In this document: piece after piece, positions 14,268-27,459 of the stretch
Layout: each line of letters begins with the position of its first letter
Numbering within the stretch: position 1 is the first letter of the stretch
Source: a virus
Direction: 5' to 3' (one strand)
Virus record (IMG/VR): IMGVR_UViG_3300042691_007469
Coordinates: 1 to 33,519 of that record
DNA: 33,519 nt
Made by a program: the position numbers and the translations under genes
Notes under the pieces: generated by a model
Database searches by the model: none
What the model was told of the DNA's origin: nothing
What the model saw: the letters and a program-made list of their open reading frames with translations, nothing else

Positions 14268-15008
14268 ATGGGTAAAATCACAATGGATTTGGCGGCAATG
14301 TTTCCTCAAACTTTTGGAGATAAAGATGCATTGCGTAGGGCTGCATTAAGCGAACAACTTCAAAATGCACAGTTAAATGCATACACACAAAATCAGCAGG
14401 AAAAAGAGGTAATAAGATCAAATCAAATATTGCCATTTGAGGACTTTAAGATTGATGTAAATGGAGAGCAGATTCCATTTAAGGCACTTCCTCCAGAGCA
14501 GAAGGCTCAGTGGGCAAAGCAACGCCAAGTTGATTGGGAGCTAGAGCAATCAAGAAAGTTTACAAAGCACCAAGCAGATATGGCGAAGGCTGAAGTTGAG
14601 CTTGAAACAAACCTTCAAAAGAAGAGGGATATTCAAGCCTCTCAAGCTGGTGGCAATGTAAAGCCTGGTCCAGATTTCTTCCCTGGTGAAATGTTTGGGA
14701 AGTCATACGCAAAACAACTAAAAGACATCGAACAAGAAATAGGTAAAACTGAACAAAAGCGTAATGTTGCTGGGATTCAAATGCAGGCATTAAAAGATAC
14801 TCAAATGCCGCAAAGTTACGGAATGCCTTCAGTTACAAGGCCTGCCACACAGCAACCAACAGCCCAACCATCCGCACAGCCACAAGCACAGCCACAAACA
14901 CAGCAAGCAGTTCCTACCTATAAATCAAGAGACGAGGCAATTCAAGGCGGGGCAAAAGCTGGAGATATTGTTTATATTCAAGGTGTCGGAAAAGTAAGGA
15001 TGAGATAA
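14268..15008 (+). CDS. Putative internal virion protein, Gln/Pro-rich linker
   Basis: A 246-residue protein with a strong AAGGAG site. Residues 1-155 are helical and charged with coiled-coil character (QADMAKAEVELETNLQKKRD). Residues about 175-210 are a Pro/Gln/Ala low-complexity linker (QQPTAQPSAQPQAQPQTQQ), and the last 35 residues form a small beta unit (YKSRDEAIQGGAKAGDIVYI, then VGKVRMR). The layout, helical body - flexible linker - small beta tag, resembles internal or scaffolding-type virion proteins. Function unknown beyond the context of ejection genes. Confidence 0.55.
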   Translation: MGKITMDLAAMFPQTFGDKDALRRAALSEQLQNAQLNAYTQNQQEKEVIRSNQILPFEDFKIDVNGEQIPFKALPPEQKAQWAKQRQVDWELEQSRKFTKHQADMAKAEVELETNLQKKRDIQASQAGGNVKPGPDFFPGEMFGKSYAKQLKDIEQEIGKTEQKRNVAGIQMQALKDTQMPQSYGMPSVTRPATQQPTAQPSAQPQAQPQTQQAVPTYKSRDEAIQGGAKAGDIVYIQGVGKVRMR

Positions 15009-15012
15009 CAAA

Positions 15013-18000
15013 ATGGCAAGTCCCGACTTGGGGTTTGACATTATTGAGCCAGAGGTAAAAGCAAATCAGCAAGATGCTGGATTTGATGTAATTGAGCCAG
15101 AAAATGCTAAACCAGCTCCATCAGAATCATTTGATGTAATTGAGCCGGACAGACAATACTTATCTCAAATCAAGCGAGACTATGTTTCGCAAGGTGGAAA
15201 TCCGCTTGACGTTTACGCACCAGAGCGTGCTGATTTCCTTGCAAATGAAGTAAACAAAAACCTTCAGTCTGGACTATCGCAAGAAGAGGCGTTGCTCAAG
15301 GCAACAGATGCGCTTGAAGCCCTGCCTCCAGAGACAAGACCGGATGGGTCTATATCCGCCGGATACGCTCCAACCGAGGAGGCCATCCAAAAGGGAATGA
15401 TCCAGCCAGCAGCATTACCAGCCGTTAGGAAGGCGATGAACGAAGGTGTGCTTACTGTCTCGTCTGGATTCGATAAAGATAAAGGCGTTGGATTTGCGGT
15501 TGGTAAGGCAAAGGATGGCAGAGTTGTCCGTATTGAAGAAAAGCCACCTGGAATAATTGGGGCATCATTAAGGTCGGTTGGAGAACAGATTATACCTGGA
15601 GCTAGTGCAGTTGCTGGATCAATTCTTGGTGGAGTTGCTGGCGCACCAGCAGGACCAGTTGGGATACTTGCTGGAGGATTGGCTGGTGGTGCTGCTGGAT
15701 ATGAAGCTGGAAGAATGGGGCAAGCTGGCCTTGCAAGAATTCTAGCTGGTGAACAAGGCTACGCAGACTACCAGAGAATGCGCGAGGCCGATATTGCGAT
15801 GTTCCCAATTACAACAAAATCTCTTGAGATTGCGACACCTATGGCTGTTGGTGCTGGACTCGCTGGGCCAACGAAAGCCATTGACAAATTTCAACAATTG
15901 TTTCAGCCCAAAGCTACTCCTTCCCTACAAACAAAAGCACAGCCTCCAGAAACAATTATTCCTCAAGCTGCTGTTTCAGCAACTGAAAATGTACCAACAA
16001 AAACATTTTATCACGGATCTCCAGCAACATCTATTGAAAACATAAAAAGCGATGCCAGAGGACTTGTTTTTGTATCTGAATCAAAAGATGTATCATCTTC
16101 ATATAGGCTATCGAGGACAAAGGATGTTGACTTAAATAAAGCTGGATTAACAAATGAAGAGAGATTGTCTTACGATATGTACAGAAAGGGTCTTCGTGAA
16201 GATCCAACTGCAAACCCGGACCAATTTTTGTCACCAAAAGAATTTGATGAAGCAAGTTCTGCTCTTGAAAAGATTGAAGCATACAAAAAAGCATTGGCAG
16301 AGCAGGGGAAAATTTACGAGATAAATATACCGACAGACAAGATTATTGACTGGAGAAATCCAGATAATTTCTATAAAACCTTGTCTGCTGTTGAGGCTGA
16401 CTTGAGGACATCTGGAGAGGTTAGGCTTGCCAATATATTGCGAAATTCAATCTCAAACAAAATTCCTCCTCAATCTGGTTTGCTCGACAAGCCAGTATTT
16501 GATTCCCTGAAAAAACAAGGCATTGAGGGAATAACATTGCCACATTCAAAAGAAGGGTCGGAGACAATGCTAATCAGAGGCGCACTAGAAGTTGCGCCAG
16601 AAGGACAGCAGCCAATTCGCCCCGGGGTTATTGGCGAGGCTGGCTTTGAATCTGGAACAGTGCGTCCAGAGTTCAAGATGCCGGAAGTTCCAGAAGGATC
16701 TAAAATAGCTAGGACGGCAGAAAGAGTGTTGAAATCTGAAAAAGCACCAGAGCCATTCAAGGCAGAGGTTGCGGTTCAGCCAGGCACAGTAAGGCAGAAT
16801 GTTCCTCTTGGTGCTATTAAAAGAAATCTTGAAGACCTTACAGATGATGAGCTAAATGAAATTGCAAGAAGAAGCATTACCTCGTCAGCGTATGATGATG
16901 CAGAAAGAGCAGGGGCAAATGCAATACTTGCCGCAAGGCAGATTGATGCAGACCCTGCGTCTGCCGCAATCAATTGGGATGAATTCACTAAGGCTGCATC
17001 TTTAGCTGGTGTTTCATTAAGAAATGTCCGTGAGTACTTGAATACTCCTGCTGGGTATTTGGCAACAATATCAAAGGCAGCGGAAGCAGCGAAAAGAAAT
17101 GTACCACAAAGCGTGAAGGACAATGTTCTTCGACTATTTAATGCAAGTAAAAATGCAAAAGCTGAGTTTGTTAAAGCGGAAGCAAATTACAGATCAAGCC
17201 TAACCGATGAAGCTGCTGCTATTGCTGAAAACGCAAGAAGGACGGCGGCTAGCGCGGCAACAAAACTTCAAAAATATTCAGACAGAATTTTTCCAAAGAA
17301 AATTCTTGGCGAGATACTTCCACAAGCCATACAGCTTACGCTATTAAGTCCGTTATCTCTTGTTAAGAATCCAGTATTTAACGTAGCCAGAGCAGTAGGC
17401 CAGCTTGGCGTGAGGTCACTAGCAAACGCTGGAGATGCGGTAATAAGCTATGTAACCAAGCAACCAAGGACGATGACTCAATCTGCGCTTACAACAAAGG
17501 GTGCAATGATTCGTGGCACTGAAAAGACAAAAGAAGCAATTCGAGCATTCCTTGGTGAAGGCATTCCAGAATCTTCAGCATTGGCTGGCGAAGGCGTAAA
17601 GGGATTTAGTGTATTCAAATCTCTTGCCCAAGCATTTACTGGCAAGGACATGGTTACAAATGCAAAAGGAAACATCGCTCTTATTGACCGAGTGCGGAAG
17701 CTTACCGAAGGAATAATCGGATCATATACAGAACCAGTAGGCAGAGCATTAACTCTTGGTGACGTTCCGGCCAGAGGGTTTGCAGAAGGCAGGCTTCTTG
17801 CGGAACAAGCTATTTTGGCCGGGAAATCACCAGAAGAAGTTTTGGCGAGCGTGAGATTTCCGACAAGGACGGAGCTAAGAGGGATATCAAACAAAGCAGC
17901 AGAGGCAACATTTCAGCAAGACACAAAGCTTACGGCAGTAGTCGGTGTTGTTGCAAATGCAGTAAAAAGCGTTCCAATTGTTGGACCGCTTACAAAAGCA

Positions 18001-19161
18001 GTTGTTGCTCCATATACAAAAACTCCAGTTAATGTCGTTACTGACGTTGTGAACTTGGCAGTGCCTGGGCTTTCCTTTGCAAAGAGTGCATATTATGCAA
18101 GCAAAGGAGATAGATCAAAAGCACTAGAGATGGCTGCTAGTGGAATTGTCGGAACAGTAATTGGAGGGGCGGCTGCCGCCTTGTATCGAGCTGGTGTTAT
18201 TACTGGGTCTGCTCCCAAATCTGCAAAGGAGCGTGGCGTTCAATACGCAACACAACCTCCTAATACAATAAATATGTCCGGCCTAAGAAGACTTCTTAAT
18301 GGCGAAGATCCAACCATTCAGGCTGGCGATGAAATATCTAGCTATGAAAATTTTGGATACCTTGGAACAATCTTTAACGTGTATTCAAATGTATTAAGTA
18401 AGAACGAAGGCTCTGGATTACTTGAGGATGTTCTTGATGTGACGCTCAAGGGATTGCCATCAGTTGCAAGTTATACGCTCAACCAAACATTCCTAAAGAG
18501 TACGAACACTCTTCTTAATGCAATTTCAAAAGAAGATTATGATAGCTATTTGGAATCTTTATATAGCACAATCTCATCAATTCCATTCCCCAACACATTG
18601 CAAGCCTTCAATAAGGCAAATAGGGAGAATATGATTGACCCAAAAACAGATGATAGCTTGCAACTATTTGCTAATGTTCTCAAGTCGAAGATGCCAGAGT
18701 TTGCCAGAGAGGCAATTGGTGCGGAGGAGCTTCCACTCAAAAGGGATATGTGGGGCAACCCGATCAAGCAGACACCGGAAGGCGCAAACCCATTCTTGTA
18801 TAATTTTCTTGATTTCACAAGATCAAGAGTAGTCCCAAGTGATGAAACAAATGTTGCTTTATATAAACTATGGAAGGAAACAGGCAATCCAGATGTTCTG
18901 CCGTCTGTGCCGTCCAGAGATGTCATAGATAAAAAGATCACATATAGGCTTGATGAGAATCAGTATTCAATTTATCAGGAATATATAGGCCAAAGGAGAA
19001 AGGCTCTTACTGATAATTTATTCCAAAGCGCAACATTTGATGGAATGGACCCAGATTTCAAGATTAAGGCTTTAGAAAAAGCGTATGATCGCGGTGCTGA
19101 AGATGGGAAAAGGCAGTTCTTGAAATACAATAGGGATTACTTGACACCAAAGGAGAAATAA
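15013..19161 (+). CDS. Giant ejection protein with ART-like domain
   Basis: A 1382-residue polyvalent-type protein. Residues 1-46 carry three GFDVIEPE-like peptides (GFDIIEPE, GFDVIEPE, SFDVIEPD). Residues about 195-245 form a Gly/Ala-rich hydrophobic segment, possibly membrane-inserting. Residues about 330-521 resemble an ADP-ribosyltransferase of the H-Y-E type: FYHGSP (His334), LVFVSESKDVSSSY (Tyr364), YEINIP, DWRNP and EGITLPHSKEGSETM (Glu514/517 candidates). The C-terminal half (about 760-1380) is helical with hydrophobic stretches and contains TKTPVNVVTDVVNLAVPG and PPNTINMSGLRRLL, which resemble LPD38-class domains seen in phage polyvalent proteins. Such proteins are packaged and injected to act in the host. 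ART activity is inferred from the motif pattern only. Confidence 0.7.
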   Translation: MASPDLGFDIIEPEVKANQQDAGFDVIEPENAKPAPSESFDVIEPDRQYLSQIKRDYVSQGGNPLDVYAPERADFLANEVNKNLQSGLSQEEALLKATDALEALPPETRPDGSISAGYAPTEEAIQKGMIQPAALPAVRKAMNEGVLTVSSGFDKDKGVGFAVGKAKDGRVVRIEEKPPGIIGASLRSVGEQIIPGASAVAGSILGGVAGAPAGPVGILAGGLAGGAAGYEAGRMGQAGLARILAGEQGYADYQRMREADIAMFPITTKSLEIATPMAVGAGLAGPTKAIDKFQQLFQPKATPSLQTKAQPPETIIPQAAVSATENVPTKTFYHGSPATSIENIKSDARGLVFVSESKDVSSSYRLSRTKDVDLNKAGLTNEERLSYDMYRKGLREDPTANPDQFLSPKEFDEASSALEKIEAYKKALAEQGKIYEINIPTDKIIDWRNPDNFYKTLSAVEADLRTSGEVRLANILRNSISNKIPPQSGLLDKPVFDSLKKQGIEGITLPHSKEGSETMLIRGALEVAPEGQQPIRPGVIGEAGFESGTVRPEFKMPEVPEGSKIARTAERVLKSEKAPEPFKAEVAVQPGTVRQNVPLGAIKRNLEDLTDDELNEIARRSITSSAYDDAERAGANAILAARQIDADPASAAINWDEFTKAASLAGVSLRNVREYLNTPAGYLATISKAAEAAKRNVPQSVKDNVLRLFNASKNAKAEFVKAEANYRSSLTDEAAAIAENARRTAASAATKLQKYSDRIFPKKILGEILPQAIQLTLLSPLSLVKNPVFNVARAVGQLGVRSLANAGDAVISYVTKQPRTMTQSALTTKGAMIRGTEKTKEAIRAFLGEGIPESSALAGEGVKGFSVFKSLAQAFTGKDMVTNAKGNIALIDRVRKLTEGIIGSYTEPVGRALTLGDVPARGFAEGRLLAEQAILAGKSPEEVLASVRFPTRTELRGISNKAAEATFQQDTKLTAVVGVVANAVKSVPIVGPLTKAVVAPYTKTPVNVVTDVVNLAVPGLSFAKSAYYASKGDRSKALEMAASGIVGTVIGGAAAALYRAGVITGSAPKSAKERGVQYATQPPNTINMSGLRRLLNGEDPTIQAGDEISSYENFGYLGTIFNVYSNVLSKNEGSGLLEDVLDVTLKGLPSVASYTLNQTFLKSTNTLLNAISKEDYDSYLESLYSTISSIPFPNTLQAFNKANRENMIDPKTDDSLQLFANVLKSKMPEFAREAIGAEELPLKRDMWGNPIKQTPEGANPFLYNFLDFTRSRVVPSDETNVALYKLWKETGNPDVLPSVPSRDVIDKKITYRLDENQYSIYQEYIGQRRKALTDNLFQSATFDGMDPDFKIKALEKAYDRGAEDGKRQFLKYNRDYLTPKEK

Positions 19162-19162
19162 A

Positions 19163-19858
19163 ATGGAACGCTATGAAAAGATGATGCAGGCTAATATTCC
19201 AAAGCCAAATGTCGCGCCAGTACAGCAACCAACTGTGCGTCAAAACCAGCCAGAAGCTGATCCTGGATTTGACGTGATTGAGCCAGAGGGTGTGGCAAGC
19301 GATACCTCTGGATTTGATTTGATAAATGCAGCAAAAACAACAGTCAATTGGGAAGGTAGGCGTGACAAGAAGGGCAATCTTTCAGTATATGCCTTGCCTG
19401 CCGGGGATATGGGTGGAGATTACGAGGTAGCTGGCATCAATGACAGATACCATCCAGAAGCATTTAGAAAGATCGCAAGCTTGCCAGCCCAACAGAGGGA
19501 AGAGGCAGCCGCAAAATACATCAGCGAATACACAGCTCCTCTTGTGTCGAAGCTCCCACAGGCAATTCAGCCATTCGCCCAGGATATGGCGTTTAATAGA
19601 GGAATGGGCGGTGCAACAAAGTATATCCAAGAGGGGCTGAACTCACTTGGCGTTAAGGTTGCTGTTGACGGAGCCATTGGACCAAAAACTCTTGCTGCTA
19701 TTGGAAGTGTAAATCCAAAGCAACTTATGCTTGCGGCAAGCCAAGCACAATTGAATGATGAAAGAGCTAGGGCAGGTGCTGATCCGAGAAGAAAGAAGTT
19801 TATTGTTGGTCTTGAAAACAGAATTAACAATAGACTTAGCGCATTCGGAGGCGGTTAA
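19163..19858 (+). CDS. GH108-like muramidase (virion/lysis)
   Basis: A 231-residue protein. After a polar N-terminal segment with GFDVIEPEG (about 35-43) and GFDLINA (about 50-56), residues about 60-150 match the GH108 N-acetylmuramidase pattern: NWEGRR (candidate catalytic Glu64), a GGDYEVAGINDRYHPEAF region (84-101), and later the helix FAQDMAFNRGMGG (128-140). The next part, GLNSLGVKVAVDGAIGPKTL, looks like the peptidoglycan-binding PG_binding_3 C-terminal module. The enzyme cleaves cell-wall glycan. Because it carries the same GFDVIEPE peptide as the injected giant protein and follows it by one base, it is likely virion-associated and opens the wall during DNA entry; it could also act as endolysin. 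No signal peptide. Confidence 0.75.
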   Translation: MERYEKMMQANIPKPNVAPVQQPTVRQNQPEADPGFDVIEPEGVASDTSGFDLINAAKTTVNWEGRRDKKGNLSVYALPAGDMGGDYEVAGINDRYHPEAFRKIASLPAQQREEAAAKYISEYTAPLVSKLPQAIQPFAQDMAFNRGMGGATKYIQEGLNSLGVKVAVDGAIGPKTLAAIGSVNPKQLMLAASQAQLNDERARAGADPRRKKFIVGLENRINNRLSAFGGG

Positions 19859-20197
19859 TTATTCTGAATCGTTTTCAAACACATAGGTTGAACCAGCCGT
19901 TCCAGAATAATACTCGCCAACCTGCACCTTTGTTCCATTTGATCCATAATAAAGGTATCCAGTTTTTGTCACAATTTCGTTTCCGCCATAATAAACATCT
20001 CCACATGAAGAATAACATCCATTTGGGGTTTGCTTGAGTATGCCATTATCCACTATCAATCCATTGGATGTTATAGCCAATCCTTTGCCACCACTAAACA
20101 CGGCGTATCCAGAATCATATACTCCGCCATCAAAGTCATCCGCCATCACCGATGCCATCAGCATCGCCGTCACTATAGTCATTGTTATTGCTTTCAT
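19859..20197 (-). CDS. Secreted protein on the opposite strand (moron candidate)
   Basis: A 112-residue protein with a clear signal peptide (MKAITMTIVTAMLMASVMA, cleaved before DDF). The mature part is Gly/Tyr/Ser-rich with repeated GYxxYGSNG-like pieces (NGLIVDNGILKQTPNG, then VTKTGYLYYGSNGTKVQVG) and two Cys in CYSSCGD. Its stop abuts the muramidase stop tail-to-tail, with no base in between, and it is the only minus-strand gene in the first 32 kb. The upstream gap to the next + gene is 38 bases, and no good ribosome site was seen. The layout is that of a separately expressed moron coding for a host-envelope protein. Family not recognised. Confidence 0.6.
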   Translation of the reverse strand: MKAITMTIVTAMLMASVMADDFDGGVYDSGYAVFSGGKGLAITSNGLIVDNGILKQTPNGCYSSCGDVYYGGNEIVTKTGYLYYGSNGTKVQVGEYYSGTAGSTYVFENDSE

Positions 20198-20235: not shown

Positions 20236-20619
20236 ATGAAATTAACATCACGCCAAATTGGAGCAGTCGGGGTAGCTCGCGTTACCGGAGCTTTGTTGCG
20301 GTGTGGATACAACGTGCTTACTCCATACGAGGACTTTGCTGGATACGACGTGGTGGCTGAAAGGAACAACAAGTTCTTCCGCATTCAGGTTAAGACGGCG
20401 CAGGCCGTAGAGCCTGGGCGCACCAAGTATCGTTTTACCACCAGCGTGGGGAATGGATTTAATATACCGAAGCGTGCCATTAGTGGCGTGGATTACGTTG
20501 CGTGTTGGGGAATGAGTGATGACCTTTTCTGGCTATTGCCAATCTCCAAGTGCAGATCGTTAACAACAAAGCTTTGCCCATCGACAGGCGGTGGCTGGCG
20601 TGTATTCAAAAACCTATGA
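20236..20619 (+). CDS. PD-(D/E)XK endonuclease
   Basis: A 127-residue protein with the helix-strand start RQIGAVGVARVTGALLRCGYNVLTP and the catalytic core GYDVVAE...FFRIQVKTAQ (Asp38, then Gln51-x-Lys53, with Glu32 upstream), matching the restriction-endonuclease-like fold found in intron-associated and Holliday-junction-resolvase-type nucleases. It probably cuts DNA during replication, recombination or packaging. Gln in place of the usual Glu/Asp at the D-E/Q-xK site is common in this branch. The next gene overlaps by ATGA. Confidence 0.8.
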   Translation: MKLTSRQIGAVGVARVTGALLRCGYNVLTPYEDFAGYDVVAERNNKFFRIQVKTAQAVEPGRTKYRFTTSVGNGFNIPKRAISGVDYVACWGMSDDLFWLLPISKCRSLTTKLCPSTGGGWRVFKNL

Positions 20620-25889: not shown

Positions 25890-26065
25890 ATGTAGAGGCT
25901 AGGGACAGACTCAAGTGGGCGCGCGATTGCCTTATCAATGCTCGCAATAGGCTGGCAGTCGAGAGGGATCGCGCGACTCACGGAAGATCAATTGACATCA
26001 TCCAGATCATTACTCTGGTAGATGCAGCATCCTTGGTATGCAAGGAAGTCATAGGAGAACAATGA
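25886..26065 (+). CDS. Small helical protein before the methyltransferase
   Basis: A 59-residue helical protein in double ATGA overlap (with the previous stop and the methyltransferase start). It contains Arg/Asp/Glu-rich helices (ARDRLKWARDCLINARNRLA, then HGRSIDIIQIITLVDAASL). No motif recognised. The gene is not an artefact of the upstream frame: both junctions are textbook couplings. Confidence 0.55.
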   Translation: MNVEARDRLKWARDCLINARNRLAVERDRATHGRSIDIIQIITLVDAASLVCKEVIGEQ

Positions 26066-27459
26066 AATATCTATCTGTCTGTTCTGGCATAGAGGCAGCG
26101 TCCAAAGCGTGGGAGTCAATTGGATGGAAGCCAGTTGCGTTTTCAGAAATAGAGCCATTTCCGTCAGCGGTGCTGAAGCATCATTGGCCGGAAGTACCAA
26201 ACCTAGGAGATATGAGTAAATATGAGCAATGGAATATACAAAGCGGATCAGTTGACCTTCTGGTCGGAGGCACACCCTGCCAATCCTTCAGCGTCGCAGG
26301 ACTCAGGCAAGGACTCAAAGACCCAAGAGGCAACCTTATGCTTACATACCTTGCAATCGCTGAACGTCTCAAACCTCGATGGCTTGTCTGGGAAAATGTC
26401 CCCGGTGTCTTGTCATCTAACGGAGGAAAAGATTTTGGTTCCTTCCTCGGAGCGTTGGGGGAGTTGGGGTATGAGTGGGCGTACCGAGTGCTGGACGCTC
26501 AATGGTTCGGAGTGGCCCAAAGACGCAGACGTGTGTTCGTTGTCGCATATCTTGGAGAAGGGAGTCTTGCCGCAAAGGTTTTATTTGAGTCCGAAAGCGT
26601 GCGCAGGGATACTCCGCCGAGCCGAGAAACGAGGCAAGGAGTTGCCACCAATGTTGAAGCAGGCGTTGGGGTTAGTCTGCCAGAACGAGAAGTAGTTGGA
26701 TGTTTAAGCGATGGCGCACACATGGGTGGAGGACTTAACGGACAAGATGCTTACAGCGGAAGGATTATGGCGGTTAAGACTGAAACAGTAATCATTGATC
26801 GGGCAGCATTCAACCAAGGACAGAACGCACAATACAGGCCACGGATCGAGCATGGTGAGACTATGGATTCTCTGGTTGCTAGAGTTCCGCACGCTGTTGC
26901 CATACCAATCCACGACCAAGCGACGCGACACTCTGGCAAGCACGGAGACAAGCAAGACGGCAAAGGTAATGGACTTGGAGTGGGTAAGCCAGGTGATCCT
27001 TGCCCCACTCTGACTAAGGGTGACAAGCACGCTGTCTTATACGAGAACCATCCCAACGACAGCCGAGTAACTGGCCCACACGATGTCGCTCCTAGTTGCG
27101 TATCACGATACGGAACAGGTGGTGGGAATGTTCCGTTTGTGCAGGAGGCAGTTGCAGTCGATTGCTACAACAAAACAATTGGAGAGAAGTCGCAATCTAT
27201 ATCGTCTTCAGCATCCGACATCAATCATACTGGTGGAGTCATCAATCCGGCGGATCGGATGGCAGTACGCAGGCTCTCGCCAAAAGAATGTGAACGACTC
27301 CAAGGTTTTCCAGACGACCACACGATGATCTCTTGGCGTAACAAGCCAGCGGATGAATGCCCCGATGGTCCACGATACAAGGCTCTTGGAAACTCTATGG
27401 CCGTGCCGTGCATGGCTTGGATTGGAAAAAGGATTGACGCAGTAGAAAAAACTAAATAG
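26062..27459 (+). CDS. DNA (cytosine-5) methyltransferase
   Basis: A 465-residue protein starting at ATG 26062 (MKYLSVCSGIEAASKAW, the SAM-binding FxGxG-like motif I). Other motifs: GGTPCQSFSVAG with the catalytic Cys73 (motif IV), VWENVPGV with Glu111 (motif VI), GVAQRRRRVFV (motif VIII, 150-160), and the C-terminal YKALGNSMAVPCMAWIG (motif X). Between motifs VIII and X lies a long variable target-recognition region (about 165-410) with His/Gly-rich inserts. It methylates C5 of cytosine, probably to protect phage DNA from host restriction. No cognate restriction enzyme is nearby, so it acts alone. Confidence 0.95.
   Translation: MKYLSVCSGIEAASKAWESIGWKPVAFSEIEPFPSAVLKHHWPEVPNLGDMSKYEQWNIQSGSVDLLVGGTPCQSFSVAGLRQGLKDPRGNLMLTYLAIAERLKPRWLVWENVPGVLSSNGGKDFGSFLGALGELGYEWAYRVLDAQWFGVAQRRRRVFVVAYLGEGSLAAKVLFESESVRRDTPPSRETRQGVATNVEAGVGVSLPEREVVGCLSDGAHMGGGLNGQDAYSGRIMAVKTETVIIDRAAFNQGQNAQYRPRIEHGETMDSLVARVPHAVAIPIHDQATRHSGKHGDKQDGKGNGLGVGKPGDPCPTLTKGDKHAVLYENHPNDSRVTGPHDVAPSCVSRYGTGGGNVPFVQEAVAVDCYNKTIGEKSQSISSSASDINHTGGVINPADRMAVRRLSPKECERLQGFPDDHTMISWRNKPADECPDGPRYKALGNSMAVPCMAWIGKRIDAVEKTK

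Follow-up and report, generated by a model that had tools for sequence, protein, structure and literature searches.

For phage P22, genetics shows that two parts of the podovirus DNA-delivery machine, gp16 and gp20, must match. The question of how such parts recognize one another arises again at a locus in an uncultured virus, IMG/VR record IMGVR_UViG_3300042691_007469, the whole of which (33,519 bases) is the window analysed here. In this window the short acidic peptide GFDVIEPE, or a close variant of it, recurs on two adjacent proteins, a giant protein of 1382 residues and a stand-alone muramidase of 231 residues, which follow the gene of a 246-residue protein that we call U. What would such a shared peptide, or tag, be for? 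We propose that it is probably a docking tag of the DNA-ejection apparatus, by which the C-terminal mini-domain of U binds both the giant and the muramidase.

A short peptide shared by two adjacent proteins

An initial annotation of this DNA had reported three copies of the peptide at the start of the giant and one on the muramidase, and the open reading frames and a motif search bore this out. In the giant (15,013 to 19,161, + strand), the copies GFDIIEPE (15,031 to 15,054, +), GFDVIEPE (15,079 to 15,102, +) and SFDVIEPD (15,127 to 15,150, +) follow one another at a spacing of exactly 16 residues. In the muramidase (19,163 to 19,858, +), GFDVIEPE occupies residues 35-42 (19,265 to 19,288, +), within an N-terminal tail (residues 1-47) that is disordered in the AlphaFold2 model and gives way to a confident helix from residue 48. 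A search of all six frames of the window found no strict match outside these two proteins. Compared pairwise, the copies show one to three synonymous codon differences, which suggests that the tags are maintained as peptides and argues against a recent DNA duplication. A codon test on the giant pointed in the expected direction, with a small effect (ratio of nonsynonymous to synonymous polymorphism, pN/pS, of 0.13 in the tags and 0.24 in the linkers).

The initial annotation had also taken GFDLINA (muramidase residues 50-56; 19,310 to 19,330, +) for a weaker copy, a reading that we rejected. Relatives read GIDLINA, NVDLVNA or NNDLINA at this position, so that FD is not kept, and because the confident helix starts at residue 48 we assign these residues to the folded catalytic domain, at the start of its first helix.

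When all viral contigs of IMG/VR were scanned for GFD[VIM]IEPE/D, the motif turned up in this protein family and in a few unrelated single matches, for example in a conserved tail-sheath segment; in four unrelated contigs (L056, L062, L067 and L068) GFDIIEPEPF lies within a conserved tail-sheath-like protein, a resemblance by chance. Relatives were also checked for the peptide on non-virion proteins, as the initial annotation had suggested, and no such case came up: across the eight genomes and twelve loci scanned, the tags are confined to the giant and the muramidase.

The C-terminus of U changes together with both tags

Scans with the muramidase gathered over a hundred loci, of which 109 non-redundant ones were typed. 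The tags are kept while the linkers vary, and when they change they do so by clade and jointly on the giant and the muramidase, which carry GFDVIEPE, EFVPD/EFVPE or GYEVL/GYEII, or are both untagged. The C-terminus of U follows the same pattern. The U end, giant tag and muramidase tag are all of type I in 26 loci and all of type II in 37, and 41 loci have none of the three, so that the three parts agree at 104 of 109 loci. On a tree of U bodies the type changes at least two times, concordantly in all three parts, and 29 of 29 U proteins agree; a sign test on this tree has only two independent pairs, both concordant, which are too few for significance. Giant tails were also compared with muramidase tails across 17 clusters in a permutation test free of any motif definition, and the own-pair score (36.6, against 29.8 ± 1.6 for shuffled pairs) was never reached in 20,000 shuffles (p < 5e-5).

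The part of U that changes with the tags is a distinct module. U (14,268 to 15,008, +) consists of a helical body, a disordered Pro/Gln-rich linker and a C-terminal mini-domain, as judged from its open reading frame and AlphaFold2. Residues 190-213 (14,835 to 14,906, +) form a disordered tether with a predicted local distance difference test score (pLDDT) of about 31, and residues 216-246 (14,913 to 15,005, +; TYKSRDEAIQGGAKAGDIVYIQGVGKVRMR) fold into a strand-helix-hairpin with a pLDDT of 83-84. The charges are opposite, +3 for the mini-domain, −9 for the giant N-tail and −6 for the muramidase tag. Model confidence, charge and co-variation together make this mini-domain the candidate tag receptor. 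It had no match in a PDB sequence search or a BFVD fold search, and tblastn of the type II and III mini-domains against INPHARED gave no useful match; the type I/II alignment was too variable for a scan of the collection.

Two relatives, G002 and G003, provide a natural experiment. Their tags differ, although the portal (100%), scaffold (99%), capsid (97.7%), a 152-residue protein (100%) and a 652-residue protein (98.6%) are nearly or fully identical. Nucleotide identity is 0.97-1.00 as far as the middle of U, falls to 0.47 and 0.39 over the U C-terminus and the giant tags, is back at about 0.6-0.97 over the rest of the giant, and drops again to 0.51 at the muramidase tag. The changed part of U is its last ~35 residues, YKSRDEAIQGGAKSGDIVYIQGVGKVRMR in one genome and YNTPEDALKAGVKEGDRVIIGGRAGTFKRPK in the other. 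Portal, scaffold and capsid were rejected as tag partners because they are 97.7-100% identical in this pair despite the different tags. Thus, the idea of a docking tag on two virion-type proteins, put forward in the initial annotation, is well supported by the disordered tails, the conserved tags and their joint switches, but the portal or scaffold named there as its partner does not survive the comparison of G002 with G003.

Some of the typed loci show variations of their own. In L139 and L024 a third tag copy, LPGYDVIEE, lies at giant residue 160, well past the N-terminal pair. The tagless giants of L025, L037, L114 and L143 start with a small domain (IDIEGVGEIDLPDDATPEDIN) that resembles the P22 gp16 N-terminus, and the U proteins beside them have ends such as GKYATDPATGKVIRVK, possibly a docking pair of the P22 type. 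In L118, L123 and their relatives the giant starts with PPAWSEIKASEDYKSLTYPEQ, similar to the Sf6 gp13 N-terminus (MAKAWKDVIASPQYQALAPEQ), and U has two alternative C-terminal regions before a common RLGR end.

Matched ends in cultured short-tailed phages

By position and architecture, U would be a gp20/gp15-like ejection protein; this label rests on those two features because U is without sequence relatives in cultured phages. The giant occupies a gp16-like position, and its three long hydrophobic segments (by hydropathy) fit the membrane segments expected of a gp16-like protein. U followed by the larger giant, downstream of capsid and tail genes, is the gene order of a podovirus ejection pair, and we take both to be virion ejection proteins. 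The giant has no PHROG, Pfam or cultured-phage relative.

If U and the giant form such a pair, their counterparts in cultured phages might be matched in the same way. The gp20 C-terminus matches the gp16 N-terminus in 20 of 20 cultured phages, which fall into four end types. SKSGI[KQ]FTVE on gp20 goes with [K]VTANGKTF on gp16 in P22 and epsilon34; SLWGD goes with MAKAWKDV in Sf6, ST64T, L, VSe13, S9-5, Gally, 683R2, HK620, CUS-3 and Louie; RYG/KYG goes with an NPFDQFD-like sequence or NPFAQ[LI]E in Sf101, IME10, APC_JM3.2, V3, 4_4512, ZP9 and Pam1; and KYLGG goes with MAYSREQL in Emek. P22 and Sf6 are therefore of different end types.

The ends are exchanged on otherwise conserved proteins. 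In P22, HK620/CUS-3 and Emek the gp20 bodies are at least 90% identical, the ends differ, and gp16 fits each of them; the same holds, again with gp20 bodies at least 90% identical, for epsilon34 versus ST64T/L/S9-5 and for Sf6 versus Sf101. The reverse is also seen, in that the gp16 bodies of epsilon34, CUS-3 and Louie are 99-100% identical and have different N-termini, each fitting its own gp20. A prediction written beforehand held: HK620 and CUS-3 share an N-terminal type, and the gp20 of phage L ends in SSLWGD. The HK620/CUS-3 type proved to be that of Sf6 and not the NPFAQ type thought likely beforehand. The matched ends of P22 may already have been noted in a published analysis of P22 mosaicism.

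Published genetics indicates what such a match is needed for. P22 that has received a single Sf6 gene, either 16 or 20, makes non-infectious particles, whereas P22 with the two together is functional, and the particles with Sf6 gene 16 only still contain the foreign gp16 (PMC10883804). P22 gp20 loses its function when its last 33 residues are removed (PMC10883804), and gp20 enters the particle via its first 314 residues (PMC8402733). Because gp16 is packaged without a match, gp20 enters through its first 314 residues, and its last 33 residues are nevertheless essential, it is most likely the delivery machine, rather than packaging, that depends on matched ends. A packaging role for the tag, as suggested in the initial annotation, is also not the reading we prefer: in P22, gp16 and gp20 enter particles independently and must match for DNA delivery (PMC10883804, PMC8402733).

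NPFDQFD-type pairs in uncultured phages

NPFDQFD, a repeat similar to the tags, was also tested. Of 103 NPFDQFD-tagged genes whose locus includes an upstream gene, 91 are preceded by a C-terminus of the F..KYG mini-domain type. In the reverse test, a search for FDAKYGAGAA in which the next gene was read, an N-x-[FY]-D-x-aromatic/Ile tag was present within the first 60 residues in 44 of 46 cases; L376 has two tags directly after a fused hydrolase domain, which brings the count to 45 of 46 and leaves only L391 tagless. The next genes of L376, L397 and L412 start with what appears by eye to be a peptidoglycan hydrolase-like domain, with the tags flanking or following it. Among cultured phages, a KYG-type mini-domain followed by a tagged gene occurs in Pseudanabaena phage Pam1, where the mini-domain protein is annotated as 'translocase of injectosome', in Aeromonas phage 4_4512, where it is a homologue of P22/Sf6 gp20, and in Proteus phage V3 and Shewanella phage ZP9. 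Sf101 gp16 has a transglycosylase-like domain and then NPFAQLE and NPFAQIE, in one chain. Literature searches returned nothing for NPFDQFD in full text and nothing relevant for FDQFD, nor did they turn up a description of a separate muramidase with a tag.

Docking, packaging or linkage

In the docking model, the C-terminus of U would be a small, folded and basic domain, attached by a flexible tether, and this domain would bind acidic-hydrophobic tags in disordered N-terminal tails, three on the giant and one on the muramidase. The two proteins would thereby be held together on one tunnel complex, so that the muramidase could open the peptidoglycan at the site of the channel. In T7 gp16 and Sf101 gp16 the hydrolase domain is fused to the ejection protein, and the window would have the split-gene version of this arrangement. 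The tags, the disorder of the muramidase tail, the mini-domain, the three-way co-variation and its recurrence are observed; direct binding of the tags to U, with its stoichiometry and timing, and a role in delivery rather than packaging are what we infer.

Several points weigh against docking. U and the giant were unmatched by tblastn in 50,697 phage records (INPHARED). The published P22/Sf6 hybrids exchanged whole genes rather than ends (PMC10883804). The regular expressions that define the types were written after the data had been seen; the permutation test and the written prediction are exempt from this. Five loci of the L113 clade (L113, L120, L144, L148 and L153) break the three-part agreement. 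Their U proteins carry a mini-domain of a third type (GDMVIIGGRRGILEP), but no tag is repeated beside it: the giants show one candidate at most (MAFRPLDGE), and the muramidases are untagged. Finally, the end of U and the start of the giant are adjacent DNA, so that one crossover transfers both, and linkage alone could yield part of the co-variation, though not the agreement with the distant muramidase tag.

The alternative that fares best is a packaging signal, in which the tags recruit the giant and the muramidase into the procapsid through scaffold, portal, capsid or core. In its favour, the two proteins have the look of virion proteins, and the position of the tags in N-terminal tails is like that of the T4 internal-protein signals; T4 IpIII needs no more than its first ten residues to be packaged, and incorporation of P22 gp16 requires scaffold (PMC8402733). 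We nevertheless consider this explanation unlikely, in that portal, scaffold and capsid stay unchanged when the tags switch and Sf6 gp16 enters P22 particles without a matching gp20 (PMC10883804). The head genes annotated from terminase to capsid, which are not all of the open reading frames there, yielded no prohead protease.

Linkage by itself appears less likely still. Here hot-spots of recombination at two junctions, U-giant and giant-muramidase, would move blocks of DNA, and the tags would agree because they are co-inherited or gene-converted, without binding the end of U. In its favour, the U C-terminus and the giant N-terminus are adjacent, and the G002/G003 block is one replaced segment. 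We disfavour it because P22/Sf6 single-gene hybrids are dead (PMC10883804), because the muramidase tag agrees although 3.5 kb of giant body lie in between, because the tag copies differ by synonymous codons, and because matched pairs persist although gp20 bodies and gp16 bodies alike have undergone repeated swaps.

A role of the tags in binding some protein of the host, at entry or in lysis, is very improbable. Short acidic disordered motifs are frequent binders of host proteins, but here the tag type switches between near-identical phages, presumably with the same or a similar host, and tracks a phage domain. Least probable of all is that the tags are propeptide sites cut by a maturation protease, as their IxE-like sequence, which resembles T4 head cleavage sites, might suggest, since no protease is seen among the annotated head genes, the EFVPD-type tags have no common cleavage consensus, and the third copy of L139 and L024 lies as far in as giant residue 160.

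Other features of the locus

The muramidase matches PG_binding_3 (PF09374) at 33.5 bits, above the cut-off of 24.6, and Glyco_hydro_108 (PF05838) at 14.0 bits. Because the latter lies below the curated cut-off of 21.2, we call the protein GH108-type by fold only; Foldseek matched its model to SagA (3.3e-4), NMB1012 (1.7e-4) and also Salmonella Sen1395. A genome-contig search with the muramidase returned only distant relatives (35-41% identity), and no host was assigned.

The capsid gene of the window matches PHROG and Pfam capsid families, and a near-complete relative encodes TerS, TerL and a portal that matches PF23899 (SU10_portal), which together indicate a podovirus-like phage. The giant exists in versions of ~1174 and 1382 residues. 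The longer version has an extra stretch of ~208 residues (FYHGSPATSIENI) at about 15,970 to 16,600 of the window (giant residues roughly 320-530), which by eye is ADP-ribosyltransferase-like, is without a Pfam match and is possibly an exchangeable cargo domain. Directly after the muramidase lies a small convergent gene (19,859 to 20,197, −) with a signal-peptide-like start, which is 95% kept between G002 and G003 and has no family match. The non-structural half contains DNA methyltransferase-like and PD-(D/E)XK nuclease-like genes (26,038 to 27,459 and 20,236 to 20,619, respectively).

Comparison with known systems

Taken together, the window, the cultured phages and the NPFDQFD loci lead us to favour, with somewhat less assurance than docking in the window itself, a general docking code in short-tailed phages. 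The last ~10-35 residues of gp20/gp15-like proteins would serve as a socket for an N-terminal tag or small domain of gp16-like proteins, the same code would work on separate enzymes, and the ends would be swapped as matched sets. If this is true, the gp20 C-terminus and the gp16 N-terminus would supply the contact site, which could explain why some ejection proteins resist single swaps, and sequence alone would predict the partners of ejection proteins and the separate enzymes that travel with them. The uncultured lineage adds a stand-alone muramidase with the tag of the giant, which is absent from the cultured phages compared.

The window muramidase itself has the same predicted fold and PG_binding_3 domain as Brucella SagA and Salmonella Sen1395; it differs from them in its added disordered, tagged tail and shares about 20% identity. 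T4 capsid-targeting sequences are likewise short N-terminal peptides on internal virion proteins, but they bring proteins into the head and are then cleaved, whereas the tags of the window vary with a domain of an ejection protein, and the annotated head genes showed no protease.

The closest parallels are ejection systems. In the Lederbergvirus phages P22 and Sf6, as in the window, a U-like gene is followed by a gp16-like gene, the ends are matched, and mismatched pairs are incompatible (PMC10883804). Their end types are different, no separate tagged muramidase was seen beside their gp16, and neither U nor the giant of the window showed sequence homology to gp20 or gp16. In T7, the gp15 tunnel is stitched at its C-terminal region by the N-terminal part of gp16, to which the peptidoglycan hydrolase domain belongs (PMC8954989); there the hydrolase is fused and contact is made by a long 'molecular tape', whereas the window has a separate hydrolase and tandem short tags. 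The NPFDQFD-tagged proteins of Pam1, ZP9, 4_4512, Sf101 and many uncultured phages have one to three N-terminal F-D-x-aromatic/Ile tags, follow a mini-domain protein and have hydrolase domains beside the tags. They use another tag and another mini-domain (AAIxYLRxNPxLxxxFDxKYGxGAA), and their hydrolase, where seen, is fused, whereas in the window it is encoded by a gene of its own.

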